Shown here: positions 8,367 through 60,090 of the stretch, one piece after another
Layout: the number at the start of each line of letters is the position of its first letter
Numbering within the stretch: the first letter of the stretch is position 1
Assembly: GCA_010094045.1 (NCBI GenBank)
Contig: ML986589.1
Location: forward strand, 1 to 64,000
Origin: Lojkania enalia
Lineage: Eukaryota; Ascomycota; Dothideomycetes; Pleosporales
DNA length: 64,000 bases
Direction: 5' to 3'
The notes under the pieces: generated by a model
What the model was told of the DNA's origin: nothing
The model's database searches: none
Seen by the model: only the letters and a program-made list of their open reading frames with translations
Made by a program: the position numbers and the translations under genes

Positions 8367-10170
8367 TTAATCTCCGGCGTTTGACGCAACGTCCACAGAC
8401 TCTTCGATACCTTGTGATGTGAGATACCGGTTGACTTCTTTCCAGTACCCACGCAGAGTAGGAAGATGGCTCTTCCAAACGTCGCCAAGGTCCTTGACCT
8501 TGACGTTGTGTTGAATCGGGTGATGGATACCAAAGAAGATGCGGGACGCTGGGTCCAAAGGGTCTTCGCCATGATTCATTTCAATGCAGATGGGAATTTC
8601 CTTGAGTCCATCTTCACCACCCTGATTTTCCCCTGATACTAGAGTAGGCTTCGAGCCCGAGGAGAACGCGATTGCATGCTCCTTGGCGCTGATGCCTTTT
8701 TTGGTGGTTGCCTTGCCCCCATAGGTAAAGATCGGGCTAGGAACGGTCAGCTGGAGACTTGGCTTTAGGCAGGCTATCCTCACCAGGCGAAACAGAAGCC
8801 CCTCCTGTTCCTCATTACGATAAAGCGGCGTACTTGCGTAAACACACGCTCCTTATACTTCACGTAGGAGAAAGAGTCATTGTAGCAGGTGGCTGTCTGT
8901 CCAGCTGGCTCAGTGAAGAGGACAGAGAAGACCTTTGCGACTGTCAAATAATTCAATTAGACTTGGAGCTAACGGTCCTACCTTGCCTTCCTTGAAAAAG
9001 CTGGAAGGGTGCACGAAGAATGCTATAAATTCTTAGTAAGAATCTAGTTCCTTTCTGAAAAAAATAGAACACTTGATTGATGCTAGTACCTACATGGATC
9101 TAATTCTTCTTGGTCATAAATCTGCCTCTGTGGGCTCGATTCTCTTGCTTTGATTTCAGGGCCCTTTCTTGGCAGAGGTTGGGTTGCACTGGTCCCTGCG
9201 TGCGAACCGTAATGAATATGTCCTGACGAGATGTTAGCAAAACGTAGTCTCTTGTGATCAATTTACGCACCAACGTATTGGGTCGAAGGCCACGGTGTCA
9301 ATGGTTGACGATCCTGCGTATTGTAGAGATGCTGTGGCTGCCCCTGTGGCAGATCGTTGTTAAGTGCATAGCTTAGTTGGTGATATCTTTGATTGGGATG
9401 CCCAGATAGGATTGCAGGACTTGGCCTGGGAGTGTCGTGCGCATCCTCCTGCTGAAATGAGGTCTGGACTGCCTGCTCGGTTATCAGCTTGATATGGCTT
9501 GGCGAATGTAGCTCTCACGGACCGGTGGGTTGTTTGAATACGGAAAACAAGTTGAATTTTGGTTTGGGTATTGTCTGTACAGGTTGTTGGCAGGCGGATA
9601 TTGCTGCGTAGGTGAATAATAAACAGAATTCTCTGGATGATAGCCGTCTACGGTTGGATTACGCGAATCGGTATAGGACTGTGTCGGGGTTTGCTCTGGG
9701 CTCGGCGTTTGAGAGAAAGGATTAGAGTTCCGCGGCTCTGCAGCTGGCGAAGTTGCTGAGGCAACTGCATAGCCCGATTTCGACTGCGAATAAGCGGAGT
9801 CGTTGCGGCTGCGACGGCCGCTAGTTGAAGGGGTAACCGTTGCGTTGGAGTCGCTGCGGTTGGGAGGGTTGTAAGTTGAAGGGGTAACAGTTGCGCTGGA
9901 CTGGTAGATTTGAGAATTAGATGATGCAGGAGTGGCAGTGCTCCTAAAGGATTAGCGGTCTATCCCAGAATCATGTGACCGAGAATCGATAGGGGTAGTA
10001 CTCTTGAGCATTGTCGTCCCAAATGAGCTGCCATTGGTCTGTTTTGGTCAATCATCCAGTATCGGCAAAGTCTGCTACCACGTCACAGGGGACTCACTTG
10101 CTGCATCCAGTTCATGCCGATAGTATCTGCCATGTTCGGAACTCCAGTTCCATTGCGTCGGAGAAGACAT
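8367..10170 (-). CDS. DUF6590-domain protein, cassette 1 left (type A)
   Basis: Protein of unknown function, about 450 residues after splicing. I reconstructed it from exon 1 at 10170-10098 (MSSPTQWNWSSEHGRYY), exon 2 starting at 10038 (QWQLIWDDNAQ), a long Ser/Thr/Gln/Asn/Pro-rich part over about 9965-9300, and a C-terminal DUF6590 domain over about 9020-8400. Domain hallmarks are FFKEGKVFSVLF, RRFIVM, CPIFTYGGK, the SRIFF block and HNVKVKDLGDV. Junctions are GT-AG. The intron after exon 2 uses a poor donor (GTACTA) but has a good GCTAATC branch site. The first frame alone would suggest a short protein starting at 8783, which is only the last exon. It is divergent from the coiled-coil gene at 11123 and is the positional counterpart of 48724-49951. 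The function of DUF6590 is not known to me. Confidence 0.82.
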
Positions 10171-11122
10171 GGCTGCTGATCCGCAGCATGGCCCGTGGAA
10201 CTCCTAGCCAATGTTTGATGCCTCGCATTTTGGCTCGTGTCGGGGGGGGTATTTATGCGCTACTACAACAACTTGATGCAGCAGAGCCGCATCACTTGAG
10301 CGGAGGTGACTGCGATAGATGCGGAGTCATTCGAAAGCAATATGACTTTGGCGCCGACACGCATACCATCCTCACAGGCGGGATGCAGCTGTTGGCGGGA
10401 CCGGGGTCCTGACAGGCTGGAGAGGCGGCAGCTTGTCGTGCCGAGCAGGCGCTAGGGGTGCTCACGGAAACCCGTCGGCAGGGCCTATACCCGCCCACAC
10501 CCGTCCTGGCCGCCCACGCATCCCGCAAATGATCGCAGAAGTGGCTGCTTTAACCAGACGCGGCATGCATCGGGTCTTCATACGCGAGCCCTGTAAGACA
10601 CTCGTCAGGTCAGGCCGCATGCCATACATCGTGTCTGGTCTCGGTTGCGCTAGCACCCTGTCTCCTGTCTCATTCATCTACTGCAAGGCCGGAATTGCCT
10701 CCTTCCCTTGCGTAGCCCCCATATTGTAGCGTATTTACATCGTGCCATTCCTGGCACGTCTGGCCGTGGACCGCTAACTGACTTTGCTCTCATGCTCGAC
10801 CATGAATAGAGGTCACCTCGATGCAAGACCAAACCGCTACGTGGCCGGAAAGCGTCATATTGCGAGAAGGTTTGTGCAAGTGCCTGCGAGATACCACCAG
10901 GCAGCATTTGAGCGTACATGTTGGGGCTGACGCACCGTAGCACCGACTGCAGCTTGGTACAATGCTTCGGCCGCTGCCTCTTCCCAGGCTGCTGGGGCAG
11001 ACGGAGGGTATAGGGCGGTACATGATGATACAAAGGGGCCTTGGATTCCGACTAGTACAGAACCCCATGGACGGCCACCAACGTATGTCACCACAGCTTT
11101 TTCATTACCAACCAGCTCTATC
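10171..11122. promoter_or_regulatory. Shared divergent promoter region, cassette 1 pair A
   Basis: A 952-bp interval between two genes transcribed away from each other, so it must hold both promoters or a bidirectional one. It is GC-richer than its surroundings. Many overlapping frames on both strands (10433-10729, 10462-10677, 10674-11124) look like composition effects rather than genes. No specific site was identified. Confidence 0.5.
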
Positions 11123-12997
11123 ATGAGCCCAGGCAGAAACCCTTCGGGTCTGTATGTGGAGCCAATTTCAGAGGAGCAGAATCACAGGAGTACATCCAAT
11201 GATAGGGCTGCAAAGCAAGATAGGAACCAGGACCAGATTGATGGACTGGAACAGCAAGAGGAGGAACTCCGAGATTCAAGAGACAATCTTCTGGGTTCTC
11301 GTTTTGAACTGAAAACACGGCGAACTGCCTTCCGAGAGCTTCGTCGGAAAGAAGGCGTAGAGGTAGGGATAGTTGTTGACCATGTACGCCGATTGCTTCT
11401 AGAAATTGGCAGGGAGATCCCCCAATACCTTGAAAATGCATTTAATCAGCTCCTATCCCTTCGAGACCAGCTCGGCATTGTCGAGGATGAATACGAGCAA
11501 CTTGAAGAGGCATACAATATGCAAGAATGGGAATATACGGAGAAAGAAGTGGCGTTCATCGAGAATATCATGGGCGATGGCCCATCTTCTCGTGCACTAT
11601 CTGCTGCAGAGGAGAGGAATAACGAAATGGAGAACTTAACTCGCTATGCATTTGGGATTGAAGAGGCAAAAGAGGGGTCTAATCTTGAACCACCTAGAAC
11701 TCCTCAAGTGAATAGGAGTGTCAGTGCCGATGCATTTATTACACATTCGCAACCCTATATCGGTTCGCCCCATATTCCTCCGAGCGTATGGCCGCATGTA
11801 CCCTCTTTGCCTCACCAAAGTCCCCAGCTGCAACTCCCTCGCGATGATTATCCTCCACGTCAATATGGGGAAAAGCCTCTAGTTCATGCGTTTCAAAATT
11901 GGCCTGAGGCGGAAAAAAGCATGCACACATGGTCCATGGCCGTTAATCCTTCACGAGAATCTGTTGAACGGACTACAATAGGCACACTTCCGGGTCGACT
12001 TGGAACAAAAAGACATATCGACAAATGGTCGCTCGATGTTGTCGCTTGTTCTAATTTCGAGAAGTCTCACTTGAAGAATTGGGTGCCACAGGATGGCCTC
12101 GATGACGAACATTGGTGGCAATTGATTAAGAATCATTGGGATTCTGATAGCGCGGATAGTTATTTCCCTGACGCTGACCTTGATGATCAATCAGCGACAT
12201 CTCACGAAGTTGTAAGTGCTCCAACAACCGTCTCTCGGGCCAGCGTGTTCAGAGACACGGTGCCACACAACTACGTAGAGGTAAGTACTCCGGTCCAGAA
12301 GCCGCTCGATAATCGACTCTCTCCTACGACTATACCTACCATTATGGAACCCGATCATCTAGAAGACAAGCCATCCACAGATTTAAAGCATGCACACGGC
12401 ATAGAGGAAAGGGTCGATACGCCCAATATGTCAGTACAAAGCGATAACTCGAGGAGAAATAGCGTCAGAGAGAAGCAGGTCAAAGAATCGCCAAATACCG
12501 GCCCTTTAATAGGAGAAGACTTCCAGCAGCTCCCTATGCAAAGAATCAATAGGCCTATCGACAAATTGGAGGATGGTGGGAGTGGAAAGGATACAACTCA
12601 TAATGCACCTTCCCCGCAAAAGAACACCGCCCAAGAGGGAGACGATATAACACTGGCAAAAGTGGCAACGAAACGCCGCAAACAGACCATCCGTCTAGAG
12701 CCCGACTCTGTTGAGCAAATGAGTTTGGACCATAGCCACATATCTAGCAAATGTTATAGAGAAGTCATGAGGGGTCCCTTACCGGCCATTCGCCCGCCAA
12801 AAAATGGTAACGAGGTAGCGACAAGACGCAAGCCATCGTCTCCTTTGTTATCTCCACAAGGACTAGAGGGCAGATCTTTCAAGCCATCATCACGAATGCG
12901 CTCATATTCTATGTCTATGGATACGCGACTAAGAAACGGACATTCACCCATACGAAGCCGATATCGGCATGCAAAAAGTGATTGCGGACTGGTATGA
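11123..12997 (+). CDS. Coiled-coil protein CC-A, cassette 1
   Basis: A single-exon gene of 624 codons in no family I can name. Residues about 30-170 are rich in Glu/Arg/Leu/Gln with heptad-like spacing and are probably coiled coil. They contain the block RDQLGIVEDEYEQLEEAY, then EWEYTEKEVAF, which is matched at the same place in the paralogue at 50715-52343 (RDRLGTLEEDYLQMERSL, then EWEFMDKENDF). The rest is a long low-complexity Ser/Pro/Asp/Asn-rich tail with a basic patch (KRRKQ) near residue 515 that could be a nuclear signal. It is divergent from the DUF6590 gene at 8367-10170 and converges on the coiled-coil gene at 16149-17722. There is no signal peptide or membrane segment. Confidence 0.85.
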   Translation: MSPGRNPSGLYVEPISEEQNHRSTSNDRAAKQDRNQDQIDGLEQQEEELRDSRDNLLGSRFELKTRRTAFRELRRKEGVEVGIVVDHVRRLLLEIGREIPQYLENAFNQLLSLRDQLGIVEDEYEQLEEAYNMQEWEYTEKEVAFIENIMGDGPSSRALSAAEERNNEMENLTRYAFGIEEAKEGSNLEPPRTPQVNRSVSADAFITHSQPYIGSPHIPPSVWPHVPSLPHQSPQLQLPRDDYPPRQYGEKPLVHAFQNWPEAEKSMHTWSMAVNPSRESVERTTIGTLPGRLGTKRHIDKWSLDVVACSNFEKSHLKNWVPQDGLDDEHWWQLIKNHWDSDSADSYFPDADLDDQSATSHEVVSAPTTVSRASVFRDTVPHNYVEVSTPVQKPLDNRLSPTTIPTIMEPDHLEDKPSTDLKHAHGIEERVDTPNMSVQSDNSRRNSVREKQVKESPNTGPLIGEDFQQLPMQRINRPIDKLEDGGSGKDTTHNAPSPQKNTAQEGDDITLAKVATKRRKQTIRLEPDSVEQMSLDHSHISSKCYREVMRGPLPAIRPPKNGNEVATRRKPSSPLLSPQGLEGRSFKPSSRMRSYSMSMDTRLRNGHSPIRSRYRHAKSDCGLV

Positions 12998-15900
12998 GAT
13001 TTTCTTGGTTGTTTCCTATCTACAGGGCACATTTGGAGTTGATACTTGCCGCTAAACGCAACTAGGATATTGCTCTAAATTTGGTGGCCTTCTAACATTC
13101 GGATTCCTCTCTTCCTTCAATGGCGCATTACCCCTGATGGTTTCGACTGAACCGCGCTGCACGGAAGTCACGATATCTTTTTTTTCTTTTTATTCCCTTT
13201 ATTTTTGGATACCTGGAAGATCATTAGCATACAGTTTTCGATTACGGACCATGCATGACTAGGTATTATTTATTCGGGGGTATTTACCTGTTGCATATTA
13301 GCCTTGGAGCCTCGCATTCAGTTTGTATTGGAGCAGCTCAACCAGAGACCTTTGGAGCCTTGACCTATCCGTACTACTACTTGGATATTAGAATATGTCA
13401 TATTGGTAACAGAACCTTTCCCTTCGTGCAAAAATATGGGTGGGCTATAAAGATTGTTGATCCCACAAAAGACGAGGACCCAGAAATTGCGGAGGATGTG
13501 TTAGAGAACTGACATCCTGATTTGTGGGAAGTTATTTCCTACTCGCTGGCTAGCAAGAGCTTGGGATTTGTTACAGGAAGGGATAGGGTTTTGGAAGCTT
13601 CGATCTCGGTTCACTTTGCACGGGAGAGATTAGCAGGCAACAGCTTCTCCCAGGGTTTCTGCCTAGAATGTTATGATTCATGACATGAATATTTCTACTG
13701 TCTCACAGATTGCTTGGATGGAGGACAGTGGGAGAGGTAATAATCTGGGCTATCCCTGTATTTGGCGTATCTCGGCCAAAATTTGGTTCAAGGCCACTCA
13801 TCCGTGAGCCTCACTGCCTTCTTTCTCCTACCGTGGACGGATCATTTTTCTTGGTTGACTTTACGCCCTTGACTCATCCGCGGGATGTGTGATAACTCTA
13901 GGGACATGCATATCTGACACGTGTGGAGGATGGCTGGCCCCAATTATGTTTCTCCTTTTTTGGTTTACATCTCGGCCCAGTATCTGGTTTGACTCATTTC
14001 CACCAAGGCCCGCCGAAAACCCACAGCTCACTTTGACGGTAGGATTCCATTCAATTGCTACTGAATAGCCTCTCATCTCATTTGTCCATTGACTAGCCGG
14101 AAAAGCAGTAGTCTCGTTGATCGAGACTGACACAATCCATGCCACAACTTGAGTAGCAACGTCGCACATTACTCCCTAGGCGCTTCCCATATATTATTAC
14201 GACATTATTCTGCGACCGCAAACAGGTACCAAGACATGTGGTACCCTCCCATCCTTGTATGACTTCGATATTTAAGCCCCCTCACGAGGAAACAAGGCAA
14301 AAAGGCAAATCATCTGCACCATGCCGCTCCTTTTACTTTTTTCACCAGGGCTTATGCCGTCGAACCAGACTCCCGTAGTAAGGACTGCAGGTCTACAATT
14401 ACATGATTTGCACATGTCGAGTATACGCAAGTGTTCACACCATCGCCCTCTGACAGGATACGACGCAGTCAGCAGAGAGCATGCCTATAGGAATGCTGGA
14501 TGCCTAGAAAAATCAGCAAGCTCGGGTAAGACGGTGGGATGGGGGACGCTTATCGACAGGTCCAAGCGGCAGACAGTGGGCATTGAACGCCTGGACGTTT
14601 TGACTGGTCTTAGTGAGCTAGGATCGAAAGGAAGCGGCACATAGAGGATGGCCGCAGGCCCGGGGCGCAGAGCGAACGATCGCTTTTAGCGAGCTGGCTT
14701 TTTGATGCGGCGTGCCGGGCGCGTCCACAAATCGAGTGGGAAGTTGCGAGAAGCGGGTAATCTCGCTGCTCCGTCAGTGTCTGTCATTCATTTTTTTTTT
14801 TTATTTGGCTTGACGTGAAGATAAAGTTGGAGTTGTCGACTGCGGAGGACCAGGCGACTAACTCGATGCAGGAATTGGAAATTTCTGCTTCAATGTTGGG
14901 GCCGATTTGACAGTGGATTTCCGGCGCTGGTCCTTCACGCTACGATCGGACGATGGCCGCGTGGTTCCGCACGGCTAGCACGGGCACCCGCGCTTCCGCA
15001 GACATCCAATCCCAGCTCAACGGTCGACCCACTTGTGTCCTAGAGAGATGAGATGCGCCATACCCTTTCTTCTTGCAGCTGGGCATCTTTCCTCAACAGC
15101 CAAGGTTCCTAGAATCCTACAAACCCTGACTTTTCTGGGGTAAGCCCATAAAGCTGGGAAAAATAAATTTTCTCGCACTCCCTATTTGGCGACTAAATAC
15201 TCTAAGCGACAACCGAAAGCGGGGCGCTGGAGAGTATTACGGAATCACAGCCTTGTGGAGTACCGTCCGTCCATACGAAATACCTATCAGGCGTTCTGAC
15301 ATGTGCATGCGTGACTAGGCACACAGCACACCACTCCAGAGCGCGGAATCATCCACCCCAGCCGTGTCCCCGTGCCGTATAACCATGCAGGACTTCCCGT
15401 CCTGCCTATTCAATATTGTGTAAATGACCTTCTCGCTCTGGAGAGGTACACGGCGTTGACGGTTGCACTGGCCGCGGAGAGATAACACAATGTCCGTAAT
15501 CTGTGTTTTGGGAGCGGAATGCCGAGTCGGACAGGGGCTGCGCCTCGCAAGAAAGTGAGGCGGACGAACCAATCATTTTGGTACTCTAACGCGGTCAGGT
15601 TAACGCAGACAAAGCACAAGTGGAGATAGGATGCGAAAGGCCATTCATCTAAGTCGAATGAGTAGAGGGTGCGTTATTGGACGAGACATCCAGAGACGGG
15701 ATAATAGGAAGGGATAGCTGGTCGGATAAGGGCAACGAAGGGGTGTGGGCAGAACCCTATCGTATGGCTGCAGGATAATTAATTGATAAGGATTGTTGCA
15801 GGTGGAATGACGGGTGAATGGCTGTATGGATGATAGGGATGAGGCTCAACTGAATGACAACGCGCTGAGTTTCGGAACAACTACTAAACTTGGCTGAACA

Positions 15901-16148
15901 ACAGGCAAATGGAGGCCAAACATGACTGTGGGCTTCATGCAGAAAAGGCAGAGAGGCCGTTGGGCTAGTATTGTTGTTCGTGCTTTATTGGATATTGGTA
16001 ACCCAGGTGTCTTCAGCTACGACACCCACTAACTCAGGCCTTGAGACCGGAAATGGATGTCGAGAATAGCATCTCAAATCACATTGCTTACGCGAATTTG
16101 TAGGCGAGCTGAAATTTATGCATTAAGAGTAACAGGCTACAGACGCTT
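12998..16148. other. Spacer between convergent coiled-coil genes, cassette 1
   Basis: About 3.15 kb without a gene I can support. The 85-codon frame at 13255-13512 (+) starts with a hydrophobic stretch that could be a signal peptide, but its family is unknown and I give it low odds of being real. The frames around 14321-14644 and 15315-15619 lie in locally GC-rich sequence and look spurious. The corresponding spacer in cassette 2 (52344-55738) is of similar length, but I see no clear sequence match. Confidence 0.55.
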
Positions 16149-17722: not shown

Positions 17723-18118
17723 TGAATAGGAAGCAGCTGGCAGCGAAGACGCATGAGAATCTTTATACAAGATGTGGGTTCAATTTCGGTGAGGAGATGA
17801 TGAAGTGTGGTGTGCTGGTGCGAACCAAGAATATCTTGTACAGGCAGCCTTGTTGCCTCGCTAAGAGATCGGTAGAGATTGGTTGTCAGCCTGGCCCCGC
17901 ATGTCTTCTGGTTGCAGGAGTTGGTGCATGCCTGGCTAATTACAACGCCACCATTGAGGTCACGTATTGGGGGGTGGTAAGTAGCGCCGATATTGTCTAG
18001 GCTTGCATTTATGGAGCAATAAGGATCGCATTAGCAGCCGCACTCACGTGTAGACCGGTGAGTCCATGAGACCATTTAATAACCTGGTAGCCCACGCTTC
18101 TGAAGATGCTCCCCAGCG
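17723..18118. promoter_or_regulatory. Shared divergent promoter, cassette 1 pair B
   Basis: A 396-bp interval between the start codons of the coiled-coil gene (minus) and the DUF6590 gene (plus). Its size is close to the equivalent 352-bp interval at 57359-57710, which suggests a conserved bidirectional promoter. No individual regulatory site was identified. Confidence 0.55.
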
Positions 18119-19950: not shown

Positions 19951-20575
19951 ATGATTGCAATCAATACGGAATAGCTCTCCCGCATTGCGACTGAGCAATC
20001 TTACATTCGTCAGGGGCGAATGTTTACGTAACCACATTTCTTTTATGTTTTCCAATTTCTTCTAAATTCTGGAGACGCGAACGCTAGTCAACAAGATAAT
20101 CGCGCAATTCTTTTGGAGACTATTTAGTGCGTGGGATGGTAGATGACCGGACGGTTGGGCAAGACGTCTTTTGTTCCATCTTGATTTTCTTTCTTTCCAT
20201 CACATTCCCGACTCCTTTATCTCATTGGATTGCCCCATCTATTCGTATTTATCGTGTTGCGTGAATGTAGCGAGGTGAGGGAATTTCAGAACCGTGGGTA
20301 TGCTGAAGACTACTCGGCAGGGGCAATTTGAAAATAAGTCCGTGCGCAAGCCAAATTGTGGGACATCAACCAATGGGAACCATGGCAAGGGACGAGACTT
20401 ACGTGGATCAATGACTGAACGGCCAAATAAACAATGAATACATTCTCTAATAAATACAATGTGTAATACAAGCATAACAGTTCTTGAACATAACGGAGAA
20501 ATGAGAAGAACAACAGGAAAGCAACGAGACTTATCCGTTTCTAGCAACTAATAATTTAGCTTTAGCCTATCTACG
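19951..20575. other. 3' region, no gene seen
   Basis: Downstream of the DUF6590 gene. The first 100 bases resemble the region after its counterpart at 60091-60190 (shared ATTGCGACTGAGCAATC-like stretch), consistent with descent of a 3' untranslated region from the same duplication. The frames on the minus strand (20239-20547) are not supported. Confidence 0.5.
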
Positions 20576-22060: not shown

Positions 22061-22099
22061 TTTTACTTTAGTCCTTTAATCGTATGGACTCTTTCCTGC

Positions 22100-24583: not shown

Positions 24584-24587
<4 letters not shown>

Positions 24588-24621: not shown

Positions 24622-24726
24622 GACTAACCATCAAAATCTCAACGATCCTAAAGGTCTGCAGAGATGTAAGTGACATAGCCTTATCAGATATCTTGTAACT
24701 TTGAAGTCGCATTTATTGCCTACTCT

Positions 24727-25134
24727 TCCACTTTTGACGAGGACATGAAGATGATGAGCAGCGACCCGCTTGTTGCTTTCTAAGTGTAAGCAATGCCAGC
24801 TCCGTCAGAATCACGACCTCATCCTTGGGTCAAAACGTAATCGGTTCGCTATGAGGTTGGAGGGTTGCTCTAAGGATTCAATGCATTCGACCTATAGGGG
24901 ATATCCAGCGAAGTCGTGCCCATATATCGCCGAGTGTAGGGGAGGTTAGAATAGATATATGTCATGAACCGTTAGCTTTAGCTACATAAGGTCATATGTT
25001 TTAATAAGATTCACTGGAACACTAGAACTTTGCTTACTCTTGTGATAGGGATTTGGCGAGTCTACTGAGTACGATTTCCTACTACCGTACGGGAGCAAGT
25101 TATCCGGTTGCAGGTTGTATCGGATACCGTCGCA
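24727..25134 (+). repeat. 408-bp end of contig 1, identical to start of contig 3
   Basis: Identical by eye to 47663-48070 over the full 408 bases. It ends at the first gap, and its partner starts at the second gap. It includes unique-looking sequence, then the left target-site duplication actct (25036-25040), then the first 94 bases of a family B solo LTR. This is the pattern of an unmerged contig overlap. Confidence 0.9.
25041..25134. repeat. Family B solo LTR, truncated by gap
   Basis: Starts TGTGATAGGG immediately after actct and is cut by the N-run. The same sequence continues to its natural end in the copy at 47977-48203, where the right-hand actct is present. Confidence 0.85.
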
Positions 25135-47652: not shown

Positions 47653-47662
47653 NNNNNNNNNN
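47653..47662. other. Assembly gap (10 N)
   Basis: Ten N between contig 2 and contig 3. A placeholder length. Confidence 0.99.
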
Positions 47663-48070
47663 TCCACTTTTGACGAGGACATGAAGATGATGAGCAGCGA
47701 CCCGCTTGTTGCTTTCTAAGTGTAAGCAATGCCAGCTCCGTCAGAATCACGACCTCATCCTTGGGTCAAAACGTAATCGGTTCGCTATGAGGTTGGAGGG
47801 TTGCTCTAAGGATTCAATGCATTCGACCTATAGGGGATATCCAGCGAAGTCGTGCCCATATATCGCCGAGTGTAGGGGAGGTTAGAATAGATATATGTCA
47901 TGAACCGTTAGCTTTAGCTACATAAGGTCATATGTTTTAATAAGATTCACTGGAACACTAGAACTTTGCTTACTCTTGTGATAGGGATTTGGCGAGTCTA
48001 CTGAGTACGATTTCCTACTACCGTACGGGAGCAAGTTATCCGGTTGCAGGTTGTATCGGATACCGTCGCA
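47663..48070 (+). repeat. 408-bp start of contig 3, identical to end of contig 1
   Basis: The same 408 bases as 24727-25134, beginning at the gap edge. Contig 3 continues past the point where contig 1 stops, through the rest of the solo LTR. Confidence 0.9.
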
Positions 48071-48203
48071 CGATATCAAATCACGCTGGACATCAGCTGA
48101 TATACCCTTCCTTATATACATAAATATGGCCTGCTGGCCATCCTCAATCAATCAGTTCAGCTCCTCATCTCCCTCCCTGAGACAAGATTCGCCTCTCACC
48201 ACA
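47977..48203. repeat. Solo LTR, family B (227 bp), copy 2
   Basis: TGTGATAGGG...CTCACCACA, flanked by perfect 5-bp target-site duplications actct at 47972-47976 and 48204-48208. Same length as copy 1 at 836-1062, with transition-only differences. Confidence 0.87.
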
Positions 48204-48208
48204 ACTCT

Positions 48209-48723
48209 GAGTTCGGCATGATTCTCGAGTTGAGATATCAGACAAAGGTGTCCATTCTACAATGTGAGGTGAGAAAGAGTAGCTCTGATACGGGAGTGCA
48301 GGCTCTAATTGAAATAGTAGGCAGCAGCACGCAATAGGAGGGCGACGAGGCTGCAATTTATTAGGATATGTGTGGGGGACTTAGAAGCAATTTGGTCTCA
48401 AATTACATTCCCATTAGCGAATAAAGACGTATTGAAGTGTGTTGATCCAAACGAAAACCAGCATGACGCTAATGAGTCCATACACATATCTTCAGAAGGC
48501 AGTCTGAATGGTTATATCCTTCAAAGCAATTTGGTTCTCTCCGTATCATGATGACTCGTGTTCGTAGACTGAGAAATGAATGGAAGCCGTCGTTTGGATG
48601 GAGAACATAAATTTCTCAAGACAATTAAAATGGAAAAATTCCATTAATAAAATGAGATACAGCGAGGGTGATGGTAGGGTAAACGTATAGAAAGAGCTAG
48701 ATGAAAACGTATATGTCGCAGTT
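48209..48723. other. Intergenic, no gene seen
   Basis: AT-rich sequence between the solo LTR and the 3' end of the DUF6590 gene. No supported frame. Confidence 0.55.
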
Positions 48724-49951
48724 TTATTCTGAATCATCCAATCTGTCTTCGTCTTTCCAGTACCTAACTAATCTGCTCATATGCTCTGGTATGACTCTCC
48801 CGATATCCTTGACTTTAACATTCCATTCAATAGAATATGTTTTGCCAAGTCGCAGTCGGGACGCCGATTCCATTTGCAAGCTAGGATTGGCCGGTTCGAT
48901 CTCAATTGGTTCTTTAGTAATTCCATATTCACCTTGGAGGGGTACGGGTGATTCGCCAGTAAAGTAAACAATTACGTGCTCTGAGGGATTGCAGCCTGAC
49001 TTTGTCGTCCCTCTGTGAGAGTATGTGGATATCGCACTGCTCTGTTAGAACTTGGAGAGAAGGAAAGTCGACTGACATACCATGCGTACACAAAATTCCT
49101 CTTTACCTTGACGATAACAAATCTGCGGATTTGCGAATACACACGTTCGCCAAACTTTGCAACAGTTATGGCGTCGTTGTCTGCGCCGTTTCGTGCTAAC
49201 GTTTCGCTGGCGGCTTCGGAATATAGCATCGAGAAGACCTAATTCCAATGTTAGGAACGTTTCAGGAGCGAAATCCTCGGCAAAGCAAGAATACGTACTC
49301 TCCCTTTCTTGAAGAAGTCACGCGCTTCTGTTCCGGTCCTCATTCTGTAACCTAGCCCAAGTCAGGTCCTGGAGTGATTTCTGCACTCGTTACTTACTTG
49401 AGTCTAAGCGTTCAAGCCATCCACGATCCGGCGTTCCGGGAAAGAAATTGGGCAACCTTACACGCACCTCGGGGGGTACTGTTCCAACTGGGTTAGGTGA
49501 TGTAGCATGAAAACTAGCCTTGTATTTTACATACCCTGCTCGGGCATACTAGGGTCAACATATCCATGGTATGAAGTAGCCACGCTTGGTCCAGTCGTAT
49601 ACGGGAATATAGGGTTTGAGTAGGACGAGAGCGAACTGCGCAGATAAGTCCCTGAATCGATTCGATTACGCCTAGGAAATTTTCAAAATTATACTGGTCG
49701 CGAGGTTCTCGAGGCCCATACCTCTGTGGCACGCTGTTGTTGACCAGCTGATTATCCGATTCTTCTGGCGAAGTGTCTGTGACCGCATGCTGGATCTGTT
49801 TATACCAATGGTAAACGGGTTTTTCTAATGGATTTCAGCTATTGGGCAGAGCCGGTCTTCCGGATGGAAGATTACCTTGCTCGTACGTGACATAGTAGTA
49901 ATCCTGATGAGTCTCGCTCCAGATCCATTGTGGGCTGGCGTCTGAAGACAT
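48724..49951 (-). CDS. DUF6590-domain protein, cassette 2 left (type A)
   Basis: Counterpart of 8367-10170. The start at 49951 encodes MSSDASPQWIWSETHQDYYY, matching the opening of the cassette 1 protein. A short intron leads into DTSPEESDNQ, then Tyr/Pro/Ser-rich sequence (about 49620-49550). The DUF6590 domain covers about 49240-48760 with VFSMLYSEAA, RRFVIV, a GT-AG intron inside YAC/AISTYSHRGTTKSG, and then the EWNVKVKDIGRV block. The end is RYWKDEDRLDDSE, similar to RGYWKEVNR in cassette 1. The upstream exon boundaries are partly tentative, but I saw no disabling change in the domain. Divergent from 50715-52343. Function unknown. Confidence 0.82.
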
Positions 49952-50714
49952 TATGTTTGATATATTATGAAGCATGTTTCATTCGGGACGCCTTTGGCGC
50001 TAATATATATACGCATTGAAGCTCGGTTATCTAGCAATGCGGCTCTGCGAATTACTCGATGAGGACATTCATGGAAAAGAGGTGTGCTTGGTGGGGTTGG
50101 CGTGATTGCGTGGTTATTTACGGGTTCTCCACCTCGACAATTTGGCTGCATATGCACTATTAGCACATTCGAATAGCTAGAGAATGCGACCGTACGACAA
50201 GAGCTTGGTCGGTGTGGTGGATCATTCTGCGCCAAGCCGACTTAGGCCTTGAGTCCGAAAGAGGCGTTGCTCCGTGCTACTACCCCTCAACCGGGATAAC
50301 TGTCACAAGCGCATGTCGCAGGCAAAAGCCCGAGTAGGCTGACGATAAGACACCCAGGGCCAGGGTTTGGCTTCCATGGGATCCTTTGATTTACCTTGCC
50401 ACTCAAAAAGCACATAACTTGGGCTAGTGGCCGCGCTCTCTCCACATCTCGCGCCATCAGCCCATTCGGCTAACATTGCACCAGCTCTTGACCCTTGGCT
50501 AGAAGCATTCCTCATCCTGGGCCATTCCAAATACGCGTATGTATACTGGAACTTGAATCAGCCCGCTATTTGGATGGTCCACCTCCTGGAGCCTGTGATC
50601 CTCGCTGTTTCTTTTTTCCCGCAAGGTCTCTCCAACTTGTCTTTTTAACTCTTCCATCAGAGGGCAGCTTTCAAGAGTTGTCAACGCGTCTAACCTCACA
50701 CAAGATCTTGAGCC
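49952..50714. promoter_or_regulatory. Shared divergent promoter region, cassette 2 pair A
   Basis: A 763-bp interval between divergent start codons, equivalent to the 952-bp interval of cassette 1. Frames inside it (50303-50530 and 50427-50648) are unsupported. No specific site was identified. Confidence 0.5.
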
Positions 50715-52343
50715 ATGCCCGTAGGTACCGACTATTTAGATCATGGAACCAAGGAGGACATAAACAGCCTTCAGTCCAAGCGCCCTTTCTCGCCAGCTTG
50801 GTCGCTGGTAGTAGACATTCGGGGTCAAATTACGAAAGCATTATCAAAACAAGAAGCGCTAGCCGAAGAAAGAGAAAGGCTTTTAGTGAAACGAGAAGAA
50901 TGGAGGTCTTTTGGAAGAGCGGTTCATGTACAGCGAGTGGAAACTGGAGATGCCGAGGCCGCTTTCATGAGCGCTGCTCGTGATTTCTTCAATGAATATG
51001 GAAAATCGATTCCGGATGTACTAGAGACTACTTACCGAAGGGTCCAGGATGCGCGAGATAGACTTGGCACCTTGGAAGAAGATTATCTTCAAATGGAACG
51101 GTCGCTGGGAGGCTCTGAATGGGAATTCATGGATAAGGAAAATGACTTCTACCAGTTTACACTCCAGGAACTCTTTTCGAATGCCTATTTTGACCACCTA
51201 GCAATACACCCGGAATTAGTGGCTCCACTCGCGCACCCACCACCACCACCGTCTCCGCCGCCCCCGCCGCCCCCGCCGCCCCCGCCGCCACCGTTCTTAC
51301 ACCAGGATCCTTACGATCTTTCAAAGATCGTTTGGCGGGAATATCAAGACGCATTAACTGAACTTGACTCACTCCGAAGACAATTTAATGATTTAACTCG
51401 GGACAGAGCCAGATACCTCAATGAAGACCTAGCTCCAAGACCAAAAGGATTGGATCGGCCCCATAAAGCCCAAGAAACTCTGGAATCCCCGATCGGAGAT
51501 AATGGCTTGATAGATCAAGTAACTGTAAGTCAGATTAAAGTGCAAAAATTCAAGCAACTGTCAATGCGGTGCCAGAGCCTGGCCATGCATCGTCGATACT
51601 CCGAGCCAATTTATTCCATCACTCGGCTAGCAATGCCGTCTAGAAAATTAACCAGAGCTAGACCGGAGAGCGATATTCCAACATTTCACCACAGCCCCAC
51701 AACTACAGGCCGTGTAAACGAATGGCTATCTGAATACTTGAATTCCAATCCAATAGCAAGAGTGCATAATTCTGCACATCTTGTCGCTCGTGACTTTTTC
51801 GATGATCAATCCAGGGAACCAAATCGCTTCCCCCAGAGCTCCCAGTCAAGGACAACATCTCCCTACGGACTGCAAAGTTCAATGCCTGAAATATCACCGC
51901 TGTGGCAAGAATCGGACCCGGGCAACTTTCCTACTGTATTGGACGGCACAAAAGGGGACATTCCGATCAATATCACGAATGAGACTAAGGATGGACCCCA
52001 TTCCAATGAAATTACCAAGCAGCCGGATATATTGCCACTGGAAAGTAATAACGTCGTGGAAGTAGAAGGACCTAGCCCAGATGATATTCCGTTGCTTATG
52101 ATGAGTTCTAAACCTTACGCTCCTAGGGGTCCGCATTTCGGATCACCAAATCCAGCCCTTGTTTCTTCTCTCTCTGCCACTCCTATTCCTTTCCAAGCAA
52201 TAGGCGCTTCGTCTACACAAGGACTTCTACCAGCAACCCAGAGAAATCATCTTGAACCTCCTTCGACTCCAAGATATGATAGTTGCCATAATTCAGATAC
52301 GTCAGGGCTAGAGATGATGACGATGTCCCACGGCTGCAGCTAA
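50715..52343 (+). CDS. Coiled-coil protein CC-A, cassette 2
   Basis: A single exon of 542 codons. The coiled-coil-like region (residues about 40-160) has LSKQEALAEERERLLVKREE, RDRLGTLEEDYLQMERSL and EWEFMDKENDFYQF, aligning with the gene at 11123-12997. A proline run (51237-51293, five Pro, Ser, thirteen Pro) follows and is absent from the paralogue. Next come a short second helical segment (EYQDALTELDSLRRQFNDL) and a low-complexity tail containing GRVNEWLSEYL, which resembles the RV-x-x-WL motif of the CC-B proteins. It has no targeting signal and unknown function. Divergent partner: 48724-49951. Confidence 0.85.
   Translation: MPVGTDYLDHGTKEDINSLQSKRPFSPAWSLVVDIRGQITKALSKQEALAEERERLLVKREEWRSFGRAVHVQRVETGDAEAAFMSAARDFFNEYGKSIPDVLETTYRRVQDARDRLGTLEEDYLQMERSLGGSEWEFMDKENDFYQFTLQELFSNAYFDHLAIHPELVAPLAHPPPPPSPPPPPPPPPPPPPFLHQDPYDLSKIVWREYQDALTELDSLRRQFNDLTRDRARYLNEDLAPRPKGLDRPHKAQETLESPIGDNGLIDQVTVSQIKVQKFKQLSMRCQSLAMHRRYSEPIYSITRLAMPSRKLTRARPESDIPTFHHSPTTTGRVNEWLSEYLNSNPIARVHNSAHLVARDFFDDQSREPNRFPQSSQSRTTSPYGLQSSMPEISPLWQESDPGNFPTVLDGTKGDIPINITNETKDGPHSNEITKQPDILPLESNNVVEVEGPSPDDIPLLMMSSKPYAPRGPHFGSPNPALVSSLSATPIPFQAIGASSTQGLLPATQRNHLEPPSTPRYDSCHNSDTSGLEMMTMSHGCS
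51237..51293 (+). repeat. In-frame poly-proline repeat
   Basis: Nineteen codons, mainly CCG and CCC in a ccgccgccc-like pattern, encoding Pro5-Ser-Pro13. The period and purity suggest expansion by slippage. It may vary in length between strains. Confidence 0.85.
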
Positions 52344-55300
52344 TCCCGTTCGAAATTCTTTATCGACCGGAAGTCGATACTGAAATTGAGTATTTCCTAA
52401 TCGATGGGGACACTGTTCATACGCAAAGCCATGCCACGTGCCCAGGCATACTAAGTAGGCATTTTCCTCGGATGGACTGCTAATACAAAGCAAAGACCGA
52501 AGGGCAAAATTAGATTCAAATATTGATCGGTCCCTAGGGTTTTGACGGTATGAAGCCAATGTATATGTAAGCCCCTACTTCTAACAAACTTCCTCTCACC
52601 TAACAATAAGGAGCATTAAGCTGCTATAAGGCAGGTCTCCGAGCTCAGGATACCTTGGAGAACCCCTCGTCTATCCACAGCACTACCAATCAGCTCATCA
52701 ATTCGTCATACCTCTAATTGGTTTCTTGGAATTCTTTATCCTAGTGTCTTTGCTCATTCTCAGTCTATGCTATCATATGGAGTGGGGAATCCATATATAT
52801 CAAGCTTATTTAACCATTATTATGGGCAGCAAATATTTCAGGCATGCCATCTAGTGAGTCACTGAATGCGGCTCTGGCGATCATGGCTAATATTCCGTTC
52901 CCCAAGTACGGACGAATGATGTTTGTATCACATACACCCTCAAAGACTACCTATCAGCATGCACGCACACAGATATTACATTTATTGTACAATACATTGA
53001 TTCGGGGCAATGTTAGACCGTCTGGCAGCATTACAGAACCAGCACACGCGTCCTCCTAGGAAAGGTCCTTCGAAGGAACATGTTTTACTGTGGAACTCTC
53101 GTGTCAGCAAGTCTCACCTTCCCACAATTTAGAATGCTCAGCCACAAAGGTTACGCCGCTCTATGTAGACACCCGCTTGCCTAAACCAGAATTTCCCGCG
53201 CCGCGTTGGAATTTATCTGCCCTTCGGAAATCCCTAAACGTAATCCTTAGGCCTTTGTCGTTCCTTTCATTTCATGTGTTAGGGGCTACCTCTCTAATTG
53301 CATATTAAGTTTTGGTTTAGAAGGCCACCAATTCTATTATACTATTGGATCTACCTTAATTTTTGGAGCTACGATCTTCTTAATATTCTGAGAGACTTAT
53401 CTGATATGGATCTCGTATCTCGAATGGGTTTAGCTTATAGGATTAAGCTGCAACGACAATTGTGCAGTTTGATATGAATTTCGGACGATAAAATCCTTTG
53501 CCAGGATTTTTGATGGGCCCTTAAATCTCGTGCCATCTCTCGTTGACGCATTAAATGCGACTTTGAAGCATACGGCCGACCCGGTTGTCCAGGATATCGA
53601 TTCAACGCCCTTGGACGAGCATGAAAGTCGTACCTGTAGCCTGCTTTGTCACACTTATTGGAAACCATGTGGACAACCGCATCATCCCCAGTCCTAGTCA
53701 ATTACCGGAGTATAATTTAGCAGGTAACCTAGGAATCGCCAATCTGCATGTTGTGGCGATTGGCTCAAGTCTGTACACGCCCGTAACGCCCACTCACCCT
53801 CAGCTAGGCAGAATCTAGCATTTGTTTAATTTGAGGCTCAAAATATCTGGAACGATATTGCTAGTAATTACAGCTGACGCTCTGCAGTTAGCCGGAGGCT
53901 TCAAGCGCCCCAATAAAATCAAACTACGTATCGAGCGTGGGCAGAGTGTATTTCTGTATCTGACCGAGAGTAGATGATAATGCCCTTGTGGGCTTGATCG
54001 GTATCGAGTGCACATGATTCCATAATCTCGATTACGGCGTAGATGAAACCCGAAACGAACACCATTTCTGCCGATAGCCAAAGAAACACAGATCTCATTG
54101 CGCTTTAGAAGGATGCTTTTTTTGGACGCAAAGGATCAATGCGGCCGGAAGCCGTATCTCATGCAGCGCACTTGCTCGGACTTGACACCTCGGCCTTCAT
54201 CGCTGAGTGATACGTCCTTCTATAGACAAAGAAGAAATGCTTGAGCAGTGCTTCCATGTGTCATGACTTTTTCGTCCTACGAATCATCTGTGTCACCGGG
54301 TGAATTAACTTTCGGTCCGCAGGTAATTTCCATGCCTGCATCGCCTAAAGGCATCATCGATTGATATTAGGCTCCATCCTAGAAGCTGATTGTATCCCTT
54401 TCGTTGCCGTCTACCCACGTAGTGAACCATTATTCTTCAAACTCTAAATGATTTATCCACTACGAATCTCTACGAGTCTCCCAAACAAGGATTAGGCTAT
54501 GCTACGATCCCTGTCAGTCCGTCAACAGCCACAGCCGCCTTTGACCCACAACACGGCCCAAGGACCCGCCCCTTTGGTTCCATACACTTTTTATTTCTTT
54601 TGTGCGCCTCTTGAAAATCCTGCATATCTCAGGCCCTATAGGGCTGATTGGAACGCGTGGAATCTTGCTCTTCCACGGCGCGATTGACACTACGATGAAT
54701 AGTCCCCGCAATGCGGGGAGAAGAGCTGCAAACCGAAGCTATCGGTCCGGAGTAAGGCGCACGCTGCGAAGCGCAGGCAGAAAAGGCCATGTGACCCTAT
54801 AGAATCAGGCAATCAATATACCACCTGACATCCTATTGATTGTGTCCGATCAGAAAGACTTGTGCCTCGCTGTGCGTTGCCCAGTCGCACGCGTGCAACC
54901 CGTCCGCCTTTCTTCCAATCTACCGACCTAATGGTTTGAGCTTTGTCCAATATTCCACCTTCAGCTGCTGATCTGTATTGTCTCGAGTTGGCGACTAGAG
55001 TTGAGACTTCGGAATGTTAGAGTCATCGCGTGGTCAACCGTGTTCTACGAGTTGCGAGCCGTCTAACAACGCATGTCCGATGCATTGATCGCCCTACAGC
55101 TTGAGAGTCTTGTGCTCCGCTAATCAAAAAGTGAAGCAACCAATAGCTTGTCACATTGCCGAATACCATTCGGCGGCGGCCTCCTTGGTCAGTGCTAGTG
55201 GATATAGCCATATATAATTAGGAGATTACTCATTGCCGTGGGATTGGGTACACGAGGCGGGTAATTGCAGGGTTAGAGCATATTCTGAGACGCAAGCGGA

Positions 55301-55738
55301 AAGTTAAGCCTATACCGCGTATTGGAAGTGCGTATTGCATGGTTAATAGGCAGGAGATTATGTCTTAAGCACCAGGTAGAAATGCTCGATAGCGTCGATG
55401 CACGACGCTCGCCTCTGACTGGATTTCTTATAGTCAACTAAACTTGCGTCGATGGAAGCATGGAGTGGGAATGGGCCAGGCTGTTGAGGTTGGGTATCCC
55501 TTTAGTATGTCATAGATACCGTCTACCTAATATCTGAAAAGGACGGGAACGGTAAACGAAGTGGTGTCATACATACATGATGCAAGCTCTGCATGGTGGA
55601 CCGAGCTTACAACCGTGAAGATCGTAATGAGGCAGAATATAAGCTACATAACCAATGAGATAGAGGCTGCTAGTAACAACCTAAGATTCTATTCAAAGAA
55701 TGGGCGAAGATCTGTTTACAATGGTGGTCTCGTATGTG
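52344..55738. other. Spacer between convergent coiled-coil genes, cassette 2
   Basis: About 3.4 kb. Only short unsupported frames (52844-53059 +, 53435-53701 -, 53815-54081 -, 54499-54687 +). Length is close to the 3.15-kb spacer of cassette 1. No domain, RNA gene or element was recognised. Confidence 0.55.
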
Positions 55739-57358
55739 CTAGGCAGTCTTTGGCCTTGGTTCATCCCTCTCAGGAGGACGGTCTACCGGTAAAGGTTCTT
55801 CGGATGCGCAACCATCTGCACATCGAATTTTTGGTTGCTGCACTTCTGATGCTTGGGTTTCTCGTGGTTGTAAAGTTGCTGCTGCTGATTCAAGCAAAAG
55901 AGCTTGAATTTCAGGAGAGCCCGCTGGAGGACCGAAATTCCACTCTGGTGGACCCCTCAGGGGGTAATCATTGCCTATAGTCTTTACTGATGAAGGACGT
56001 CGAGAATTACAAGGATTGGTCGGAATTTCCCACGCGTCTGACCGAGACTCACTTGGCTCCAAACCAGCCGTGCCAGTATGTGGCTCTTGGGAATTATCAG
56101 ACAGCTTCAGCCAATTTCTAACCCTCTCTCTAGCGTTTACAAATGTGTTGTAGATACTAGATTGGCTGCTCCCAAGCCTTGAATCCGGATCCACTAGTAG
56201 TGATGTTGACGGCACTATCTCTGTATCTACCTTTTGCTGTAGGTTAGAGAAATGAACGTCCTCAAACTCTATGCCTTGATTTTTGCAGAGATCTTTGAGC
56301 CGATTCACGTCTCTTTTTGCTTTCTCCAGCTCCCTTTCTATCCTGTCCCTTTCAACTTTTGCTCCTTCAAAGAATTGCTCATCGCTAGTCATATCTGTCT
56401 GACCAGTTGCTCGCAATAGATCTCGTTCATCTAATTCTTGTCTCAGGTCATATTCGAAGTCATTGAGAAGCTCCAAGAAGTTGCGCAGGTCCCCTATTCT
56501 CGAATAGAGCTCATCCAGGAGGTTTAAGTTCGCCTCGGACTCCACTACTGGATTTCCAGATAAAACTGGGCCCTCTGAAGGGGAATATGAATGAGAAATA
56601 TCTGATGTGTGTGCTTTTAATTGTGATCGAAGCTCCGCATCCAACTCAGAGTATATTTCTTTTTCAAGTTCCGTGAGCTTATACTCTTGGTTAGAAAGAC
56701 TATCCTCGAACACAGCTCGCTTTTCGCTGACGCGTCTAAGATCATCTCTAGCAAGGGTGATCTGCCTTGCTAGATTGCCCAACTCTTCTGTTCGCTGGAA
56801 GTATGATCCTTGCTGCCTTACTGCCTCCAATGTAGCTATGAATGCATTCACGAGTCTTTCGAACAACTCTTCCTGCTGCTTACATCGTGCTCTTTCTCTT
56901 ATGACATCGACCCGACCCACAAGTATCAAGCTTCGGAGTGGGGCAATGCGTTGCTGCGCTGGCATCCATATCTGAACGATAGGATTTAAATCTGTAGTGT
57001 CACGTATGTCCATTGCTTTTAGGAGAGGTACAGAGCTCTGAGTAGAGCGGGGAGGATTGGAGTCCAAGTCAGAATCTGGGAACGCAGCTTGTGATCTGGC
57101 TGGCGGTTTAGAAGAAGTTTTCAAATGTGAGCTAACAGTGGCGTTATATTGAGGCGTAGAGTAAGCATTGTGAGACGGAACAGTAACACCGCCTCCTGTA
57201 GATGATTTAGAATTTCCTTCCGAGGAACTAATAGAGTTAATTGTATGAAAAGTAAAGGAGTCCGAGATGTACGCATCTGAGATCTTGACCTACCGAGTTG
57301 TCGGAAGCGGCGTTGGCGAATCGAACAGGTCGGGATGTGGATCGACGGACTCAGACAT
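55739..57358 (-). CDS. Coiled-coil protein CC-B, cassette 2
   Basis: Two exons, 57358-57294 and 57227-55739 (66-bp intron), join in frame to 517 residues. The short first exon (MSESVDPHPDLFDSPTPLPTT) parallels the first exon of the paralogue at 17722. The main body has coiled-coil-like segments with LSNQEYKLTELEKEIYSEL, ELYSRIGDLRNFLELLNDFE, ELDERDLLRATGQ and NQGIEFEDVHF, matching 16149-17722 throughout. RVRNWLKL follows, then a polar tail. The third exon seen in cassette 1 is not needed here. No signal peptide or membrane segment. Unknown function. Divergent from 57711-60090. Confidence 0.88.
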
Positions 57359-57710
57359 AGTGTTTGAACGTTAACTTAAGTCCTTACTAGACGTGGGATA
57401 GAAAAGTGTGTCAAAGAAGGGGCATGGGGCGCATGAGCTAGCGGTGGGTTAACGTTCGCAGCACATAATTTAGCGCTAGCAGGGGGAGTGATATGCAAGG
57501 TATCTTGTATGCGACTGCGCCAAGATTATGGTAGGCCTAGATTAAGACGCCACTGCTCCTACTCTCTGCAGGATGGATTCAGCTGCGACCAGTATCTCGC
57601 TACAGAATCGCTTCAATTAGAAGACAGGAAAAGAGCCGCGTCACGTGTCAGTTGGGCGGGGGAAATTATTTAATAGTGTCAGCTGAAGAACTAGTGCAAC
57701 ATGCGACGCC
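57359..57710. promoter_or_regulatory. Shared divergent promoter, cassette 2 pair B
   Basis: A 352-bp interval between divergent start codons, matching the 396-bp interval in cassette 1. Likely a bidirectional promoter. No individual site was identified. Confidence 0.55.
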
Positions 57711-60090
57711 ATGGGTTTTACCGGATGGCAGTGGGATGATATTCAGCAAGAATACTATTATTTTGACCCTGACCAAAATTCTTGCGTCTATAAGAATAGA
57801 ACCATAGTCCCCCCCGAACTTGAGAAAGACACGTAAGTCTTCTTACGCTATAATTGCGGAGCCTCCTAACAATTCCGAGTAAGGAAAGCGACTACAAGGA
57901 AGCAGGCGCCCAGCACTACGAACCACATGAATCAACACCTAAAAATTTAAACTCTTCTCCGATTAGTGGCAAACAAAGCGAATGGAATGGCGATCGAAGT
58001 CTCACCAATGAGTTCTCAAAAATCTCAATCCGCAGCGAGAATAGGCCAGTCGTAAACGCTCATCCAGAAAAAGGTCATATTCGTGAAGACTCAGGAGCAT
58101 CGATCATAACGGGCTCGGTCGATGCTTCTCGTCATGAATCAACCACCCAGGAACATAATCAGAGTATTCATGCAAGTTATGCAACAGCACCAATGATCTC
58201 ACAAAGTATGCTGAGGCCCAGTGTGCCTGCTTTCACATATTCTAAACATGCAGCCATTGGTGGGCAACAGAATAATAGTGGTCATCTTCCTTTGGGAGCT
58301 TATCCTTCGCAACAAGTGTACAGTGGTTTCAGGAGGGATCAAACTCAGGACGCACACCAGGGATTGGCTCCGTATGACCAGGAATGGGCTCCGTATGGCC
58401 AGGGATGGGCTCCGTATGGCCAGCAAGGTGGATATCAACAGGCGCCTCTGCAGCAACCACAATATCAGAATCAACCTTCAGGATTCACAGCGTATGATAA
58501 TCCAAGAGCGAATATCTATAGTCCGAACCAAGGGGTGGAAGCAACGCCAAGCCTCAACATGCGAAACTGTAGTGACGACGAGGTGCTTGAACAAGTTGGT
58601 CGAAATTTAGTAATGCAGCCCACTTTACATCCCGAGCTCCAGAAATTGGGAATTAACGTCCCGCCCCACAGGGTGCTTAGAGGAACTCCGACGGAGAGAG
58701 AAAGGTTGGATGACAGTAAGCAGTTGTGTATTTATAATAGACTATCCGTTGACTTCATCAGATTTCAAAATTCTCAAACCAGGATATAAATATTTTAAAC
58801 CGGGGCTGGTGTTTCGAGTCCTCTGGCCAGAGCTCGCGGGTGATATAAACGATCAAAACATGACGCTCGTGACGACTTCACGATTCGAGAACGAGAAAAT
58901 TTTCGCCAAAATTCGTTGGTTTGTTGTGGTCCGGGAAGGCAATGACTGTTGCACGTGTTTGTAAGTCTTCGAATTTCGTCTGCTTGGATGGCATTGGGGA
59001 GTTCAAGGAACCTCAGAAAAAATACTATAAAGAGGAGTTTAGCCTTCTATAAGTTAATAGTGATGAGAACAGGTCCATTCAAACCTACAGTAGAAGAGGC
59101 GTCCCAGAAAACAAGGTTAAGGACCACCATGCTATCATGTACACTGGAAACAAGCCTCCAGCCCCTCTGGAGGGTGAGCAGCCTCGCGGAGCATGGGAAC
59201 TGCCTATGGGACCTCCAATTCGCATCATCGGAAAGAAGCCTTGGGATAAAATGCTTCCTAGTTCCCGAGTAAATTTTCTCAAGATTTATACTATAGAGCA
59301 CAATGTCAAGGTTCATGAGTTTGGAAATGTAGCCTCGGATGATCATTGGAAGTTCATCAGCCAGTTTCATTCGCATTGGAGCATTTCGGCGGATAGTCCT
59401 CTTCATCCTGCAACGCGGCCAACAGCCCCCAGGATATCTGCTGCTACCATGATGCCACAACAAAGTTATCAGCCTTCGCACCCGGCTCACCTGGATCGAG
59501 GCTCCGTTGGCTGGCCGCAATCCGGAAATCAGGACTTAACCTCCGACTGGGCCAGTACCCATCAAATGCCAGATATTGCTGAGGATTCTGTCGCTGGTTA
59601 CGATAACAGAGACAACAATACACTTCAAGAAAGCTCAAACCTAACATATGGGGGTATAGGCGCTTCATTCGGACAGCATCCGACCCAGAATATTACGACG
59701 CAATTACATTCGGCTCAACCAAACACGGCTCTCCAATATGTGTTTCAGCAATACACCCTGGATCAATATCCACAGTCGCTCCCTCAAGGACCATTGCTTC
59801 TAAATTCCATAGAACAAGCCCAAACAAGTGCGACCGGGGGGCTTTCGGTATCGACCGTAGTTCAATACACAACAGAAGGTAATGACCATGAAGAGAACCT
59901 TGGAATAACTATAGAGCCGGAAGACCCTTGCGAAGACGAAGTTGCTTCTGCTATGGATGTAGAGGATTACCCGCCACCTTCCATCCCCGGGCCACCTACC
60001 GCCACTAGACCTAGCGACGGCAGCAGTCACCAGCGGAAGAAGAGCTCCGGAGAATTGCATAGGCCATCAGGCCATAGAAGGAAGAAGTAG
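57711..60090 (+). CDS. DUF6590-domain protein, cassette 2 right (type B)
   Basis: About 715 residues from four exons. Exon 1 (57711 to about 57832) encodes GWQWDDIQQEYYYF and CVYKNRTIVPPE. The intron acceptor before KESDYKEAG keeps frame. Exon 2 is Gln/Tyr/Pro/Ser-rich and includes a three-unit 21-bp repeat. Exon 3 starts DFKILKPGYKYFKPG and holds GLVFRVLWPELAGD and IRWFVVVREGNDCCTC. Exon 4 starts SIQTYSRRGVPENKVKDHHA, continues with SRVNFLKIYTIEHNVKVHEFG and ends in a polar tail with a basic terminus (RPSGHRRKK). It is the counterpart of 18119-19950. The first ATG in this area (57701) is out of frame, which is why I chose 57711. Confidence 0.88.
58361..58423 (+). repeat. Three-unit 21-bp in-frame tandem repeat
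   Basis: Units at 58361-58381, 58382-58402 and 58403-58423 encode GLAPYDQ, EWAPYGQ and GWAPYGQ. It lies inside the Gln/Tyr-rich part of the DUF6590 protein and is a candidate length-variable tract. Confidence 0.88.

Follow-up and report, generated by a model that had tools for sequence, protein, structure and literature searches.

A tandem array of head-to-head DUF6590 and coiled-coil gene pairs in the fungus Lojkania enalia

Our analysis concerned a window comprising the first 64,000 nucleotides of a 677,501-bp contig (C12) from the pleosporalean fungus Lojkania enalia (58-Mb genome, 400 contigs), and within it a set of genes that encode either DUF6590 proteins – Pfam family PF20233 – or coiled-coil proteins. 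We observed that these genes belong to a series of five head-to-head pairs, each of one DUF6590 gene and one coiled-coil partner, which follow one another along the contig as A1/B1, C1/D1, A2/B2, C2/D2 and A3/B3 (Table 1; A and D denote DUF6590 genes, B and C coiled-coil genes, 1 and 2 the block, and A3/B3 the pair past the window). The DUF6590 gene stands alternately on the left and on the right in successive pairs. We tentatively favour, with somewhat less than even confidence, the view that the genes form an old, tandemly expanded array of such pairs, together with the proposals on complex formation, an RNA ligand and signalling that are set out below.

Genes were rebuilt with a simple splice-aware predictor. 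The rebuilt models reproduced the gene spans, strands and collinearity of the original prediction, which had described two copies of a four-gene cassette with gaps of 952/763, 3151/3395 and 396/352 bp. Assignment of A and D to DUF6590 also held: A1, A2, A3, D1 and D2 scored 95.1, 99.7, 93.2, 140.1 and 140.3 bits against PF20233, all above the curated gathering cut-off of 27 bits. No Pfam family passed its cut-off in B1, B2, C1 or C2, and B3 had no Pfam match at E <= 0.01. The models of C2, D1 and B1 were identical to the L. enalia database proteins P0001, P0004 and P0003; the D2 model was six residues shorter than P0007 and differed from it at one splice acceptor. The claim that all eight genes in the window are open after splicing is less secure for A1, whose 5′ half is open only via a weak splice donor, and for A2, whose upstream exons varied with predictor settings.

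The coiled-coil genes that we found occur only in this array. Genome searches with C2, B2, B1 and B3 as queries (C1 was not a query) recovered all five coiled-coil genes of the array plus three other matches, and each of the five stands head-to-head with a DUF6590 gene. Manual grouping of 20 profile matches gave at least 13 loci of DUF6590 in the genome: five in the array, two on contig C58, and one each on C357, C103, C8, C4, C41 and C36. Coiled-coil profiles gave no match at E <= 1 in the 17–20 kb around the DUF6590 loci outside the array. From these searches and scans, coiled-coil genes were found only beside DUF6590 genes, whereas DUF6590 genes also occur without them; the density of the array and its coiled-coil partners set it apart from the rest of the family. 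Against this specificity count the three additional hits, of which one is a poly-Pro/Gly stretch on C52 (E 4e-9) and two are short matches (E 0.019 and 1.15). Among the matches listed, a protein database search with C2 returned itself and P0002 (42% identity over 69%), and one with B1 returned no coiled-coil homologue besides B1 itself. The C2 search did not return C1, its relative in the window at 43% identity, which was either missed or not in the database, and the protein search therefore does not show that coiled-coil genes are absent elsewhere.

Birth and death of gene copies could account for such an array with no functional pairing, two neighbours having simply been carried along by tandem duplication. 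Such turnover is indicated by degraded or partial DUF6590 copies on C4, C41 and C36 and by A3-like fragments at about 24.6 and 47.7 kb, and the DUF6590 genes that lack a coiled-coil partner fit the same account. However, all five coiled-coil genes found are still paired although the proteins have diverged to 18–45% identity, and the geometry is head-to-head in every pair; we consider an absence of functional pairing unlikely. The association agrees with the earlier proposal that the genes are kept as a unit, but the unit looks like a divergent pair present five times rather than a four-gene cassette present twice. The "two copies" correspond to two collinear blocks and overlook the further pair A3/B3.

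We next consider the age of the duplication. Identity is 57% over 121 aa for D1/D2, 45% over 244 aa for C1/C2, 37.5% over 104 aa for A1/A2 and 29% over 113 aa for B1/B2. When the contig's first 84 kb were compared with themselves by blastn, the blocks shared just one 66-bp match, inside a D exon, and we therefore rejected a recent segmental duplication. The original prediction had stressed long blocks shared by position-matched proteins; C1/C2, D1/D2 and B1/B2 are indeed mutual best matches among the compared sequences, but for A2 the DUF6590 gene on C103 is a closer relative (55% over 101 aa) than A1 is.

A DUF6590 domain tree of 64 rows (seven hand-spliced Lojkania domains and 57 database proteins, with the degraded or partial copies on C4, C41 and C36 excluded and the bootstrap not fully settled) placed A1, A2, C58b and C103 in one clade (100/99), with A2 nearest C103 (94/87) and A3 outside. 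D1 grouped with Lophiotrema and Amniculicola rather than with D2 (93/91, below the starred support level). Approximately unbiased tests on the domain alone rejected A1+A2+A3 (p=0.016) and did not reject A1+A2 (p=0.47) or D1+D2 (p=0.129). In a tree of full-length D proteins (17 rows, some with long branches), D1 again grouped with Lophiotrema (83/88, below the starred level), and D1+D2 was rejected (p=0.0017). The proposal that position-matched genes are sisters thus fails for D1/D2 on full-length proteins but not on the domain; the best tree separates A1 from A2, but their sisterhood is not rejected. These comparisons covered A and D, as sequences of B and C were too few. Given the grouping of D1 with Lophiotrema and the full-length rejection of D1+D2, the duplication probably predates the split between Lojkania and Lophiotrema, and an old age is supported.

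These trees also bear on the idea that a single four-gene cassette (A-B-C-D) underwent block duplication and has been retained as a working unit. Equal order, strands and gaps, the mutual best matches of three protein pairs and the sisterhoods left standing on the domain would all follow from it. The placement of D1, the full-length rejection of D1+D2, the position of C103 as nearest relative of A2, the further pair A3/B3 and the single blastn match argue the other way, and we judge the cassette rather unlikely. An ancient block duplication with later spread of A copies and a stepwise duplication of pairs both fit the data.

In the coiled-coil partners, long helices are combined with disordered ends, and a short R/H-V/I-x-x-W motif is present. 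Written as [RHK][VI]xxW[LVSIM], the motif follows the main helices in all six coiled-coil proteins (the five of the array and P0002), and shuffled sequences matched in 1–4% of trials each. A comparison of B and C profiles gave E 6.5e-4 over 99 columns, with a probability of only 27.5%. These sequence features make it probable that B and C belong to a single family. It counts against this assignment that the pattern was written after inspection of the coiled-coil sequences, and that coiled coils inflate profile scores and make hhalign prone to false matches.

DUF6590 is predicted to form a MazF/PemK-like barrel. In an AlphaFold model of D1, a disordered linker stands between such a barrel and a small WW-like sheet at the N terminus, and proteins of MazF type or CcdB made up 49 of the 50 matches listed by a Foldseek search of the PDB and 50 of the 50 listed by VIA. 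An Arg (51/51) and a Thr (50/51) are conserved in or just after successive strands of the model, with the Thr one off in a weak profile alignment. This arrangement may be comparable to that of the MazF/PemK/CcdB superfamily; according to PMC11130411, PemK homologues carry the Arg in beta2 and the Thr in beta3. Near-invariant polar residues of DUF6590 include R291, T310, H325, R370 and K384 (D1 numbering).

Several observations weigh against this fold assignment. The prediction comes from one model of one protein, with block confidence of 52–66 at residues 261–290, inside the domain. No Foldseek match reached E <= 0.001 (best 4.6e-3), the 50 VIA matches are not independent, as they belong to one superfamily with many solved structures, and a viral fold library gave no useful match. 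By sequence, no PDB chain matched at E <= 10; the PemK family PF02452 gave no match at E <= 1 to D1, to D2 or to anything else in the L. enalia genome, whereas 3 of 14 control genomes were positive. A profile match between DUF6590 and MazF covers 12 columns (P 0.0078), its score was equalled by 1 of 200 column shuffles, and it aligns the DUF6590 Thr one residue beyond MazF Thr52. Some other conserved residues are lost in A1 and A2. DUF6590 thus differs from the superfamily in lacking a sequence-family match, and also in its N-terminal WW-like segment, its disordered arms and a partner that is a long coiled-coil protein without a Pfam family.

The N terminus of DUF6590 proteins resembles the WW domain in its short strands and in the W / YYY / VY spacing of the WW consensus. 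A W/YYY/Y spacing occurs within the first 70 residues in 16 of 57 database DUF6590 proteins, several of which are without an N terminus because their sequence starts within the domain, compared with 0 of 60 shuffled proteins. Unlike a recognized WW domain, the segment gave no Pfam WW match in five DUF6590 proteins at E up to 1. The segment might dock on proline runs of the partner, an idea that appeals only in the case of B2 and B3; long Pro runs are limited to those two proteins, which argues against docking in the other pairs, and we rejected WW-to-poly-proline docking as a general rule.

On the favoured reading as an array of functional pairs, the shared intergenic region would co-express both proteins, and the paired products would form one complex. 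The barrel, with its polar set of R291, T310, H325 and K384 in the D1 model, may bind or process RNA or a similar ligand, and the coiled coil may assemble or restrain it. Alternatively, the MazF-like fold could be a protein-binding barrel only, and the module an adaptor that does not act on RNA. Fusions to SH3 and kinase domains, the WW-like N terminus and the disordered arms are all in keeping with an adaptor, but the five near-invariant polar residues are more suggestive of a pocket for ligand binding or catalysis; we regard the adaptor as plausible, though doubtful on balance.

Restraint of the barrel by the coiled coil, as in a toxin/antidote pair, is a possible version of the array reading that we do not favour because DUF6590 genes also occur without a coiled-coil partner. 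A stricter form, in which DUF6590 is an active MazF-type RNase held in check by the coiled-coil protein, draws on the predicted fold match, the conserved Arg and Thr and the paired genes. The unpaired DUF6590 genes, a partner with no Pfam family over cut-off, the Thr offset by one and the weak MazF profile match make it very unlikely. Type II toxin-antitoxin pairs also differ, in that no adjacent antitoxin of a known family was found here by Pfam, the sole resource used for this comparison. PubMed Central, whose scope leaves out most subscription journals and database notes, so that a prior fold assignment is possible, held no mention of DUF6590, PF20233 or L. enalia. Excerpts of its work on MazF and Ascomycota contained nothing on DUF6590 pairing or fold; in those of one such paper, eukaryotic and Ascomycota sequences appear in Doc and ParE lists.

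We observed further DUF6590 proteins in settings that hint at signalling or recognition. P0033 (C8, about 56.4–58.8 kb) combines DUF6590 and a protein kinase in one protein; it shares with array members an N-terminal W.W...FYF motif of the same kind and differs from them in the kinase fusion, with no coiled-coil gene found nearby. On C103, a kinase reading frame precedes the DUF6590 gene in the same orientation, and two DUF6590 proteins of Venturia effusa carry SH3 domains. Since kinase and SH3 fusions occur among related DUF6590 domains, use of the array in signalling or self/non-self responses is probable. DUF6590 genes on C58 and C357 adjoin related tetratricopeptide-repeat (TPR) genes (23% over 468 aa). 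These are at most possible NOD-like receptors: TPR repeats are present, but no NB-ARC or NACHT domain was found in the two stretches scanned, and the loci are absent from both genome-wide lists. Within about 15 kb of four of eight DUF6590 contig loci lie five HET matches (one with seven stops; 150 of 270 candidates scored). A Poisson estimate of 0.014 or 0.0012, depending on the density chosen and made with hand-set windows on a clustered family, makes the HET excess weak. A RelA/SpoT-like gene on C58 (27.8 bits, cut-off 27) is related to one that adjoins the C36 DUF6590 remnant. Lineolata rhizophorae and Venturia effusa (P0017/P0019 and P0021/P0035) each have two DUF6590 matches with the same longest-contig figure, so DUF6590 clustering may recur in these species.

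Table 1. Pairs of the array and their divergent intergenic regions. Positions refer to the window unless marked as contig.
Feature	Position	Strand	Remarks
A1, DUF6590 gene, multi-exon	8367..10170	minus	PF20233 E 5.2e-27 on last exon; 5′ half uncertain
A1/B1 divergent intergenic region	10171..11122		952 bp
B1, coiled-coil gene, single exon, 624 aa	11123..12997	plus	P0003; homologue of B2, B3
C1, coiled-coil gene, 3 exons, 490 aa	16149..17722	minus	gene model and homology
C1/D1 divergent intergenic region	17723..18118		396 bp; TCACGTG at -75, TTTAATA at -44 from D1 start
D1, DUF6590 gene, 4 exons, 531 aa	18119..19950	plus	P0004; AlphaFold model made
A2, DUF6590 gene, several small exons	48724..49951	minus	PF20233 99.7 bits; first exons uncertain
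A2/B2 divergent intergenic region	49952..50714		763 bp
B2, coiled-coil gene with poly-proline tract, 542 aa	50715..52343	plus	gene model and homology
C2, coiled-coil gene, 2 exons, 517 aa	55739..57358	minus	P0001; AlphaFold model made
C2/D2 divergent intergenic region	57359..57710		352 bp; TCACGTG at -70, TTTAATA at -42 from D2 start
D2, DUF6590 gene, 4 exons, 724 aa in database (P0007)	57711..60090	plus	gene model and PF20233
A3, DUF6590 gene, beyond window end	contig 64,287-65,531	minus	PF20233 93.2 bits
B3, coiled-coil gene, beyond window end	contig 66,443-68,530	plus	homologue of B1, B2

The CACGTG/TTTAATA pair in both C/D divergent regions is only suggestive as a promoter signal. We rejected a promoter code shared by all five divergent regions, whose common 8- to 10-mers are mostly near the background of simulated sequence. 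We likewise rejected a hidden gene in the 3.2- and 3.4-kb gaps between B and C, which hold just low-scoring open reading frames of about 100 aa or less, and a hidden RNA, with no tRNAs and no Rfam matches in the window.

Neighbouring genes had been described as decayed. This description suits the 43–48.6 kb stretch, which has weak gene scores only, but not the DEAD-box helicase, transhydrogenase, PHD and catalase frames, which match Pfam domains, or the DUF7025/AAA gene, which gives a 710-aa stop-free model. A 408-bp repeat with 100% identity lies at 24727-25134 and 47663-48070, and sequence beside it (24645-24833) shares 76% identity with part of the A3 gene (contig 64858-65046). Recent copying of a decayed piece of a DUF6590 gene therefore seems to have taken place; related pieces lie at 829-1065 and contig 77283-77521. 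An inverted repeat flanks A3/B3 (61479-62844 and contig 71918-73343, 88–92% identity), and a dinucleotide shift at contig 72–74 kb resembles repeat-induced point mutation.

In its boldest form, which we hold to be very improbable, the proposal would make DUF6590 a branch of the MazF fold that is widespread in fungi and still acts on RNA, each array copy being kept head-to-head with a coiled-coil partner by which it is controlled – a chromosomal, eukaryotic analogue of a toxin/antidote or allorecognition pair that has expanded and diversified as immune genes do. DUF6590 is a multi-copy fungal family, with at least 13 loci in this genome, that has so far gone unexplained and can now be approached experimentally. 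The predicted MazF-type fold, the near-invariant polar set, the coiled-coil pairing and the kinase and SH3 fusions allow this family to be tested for whether it binds or cleaves RNA and whether the neighbouring gene product controls it.

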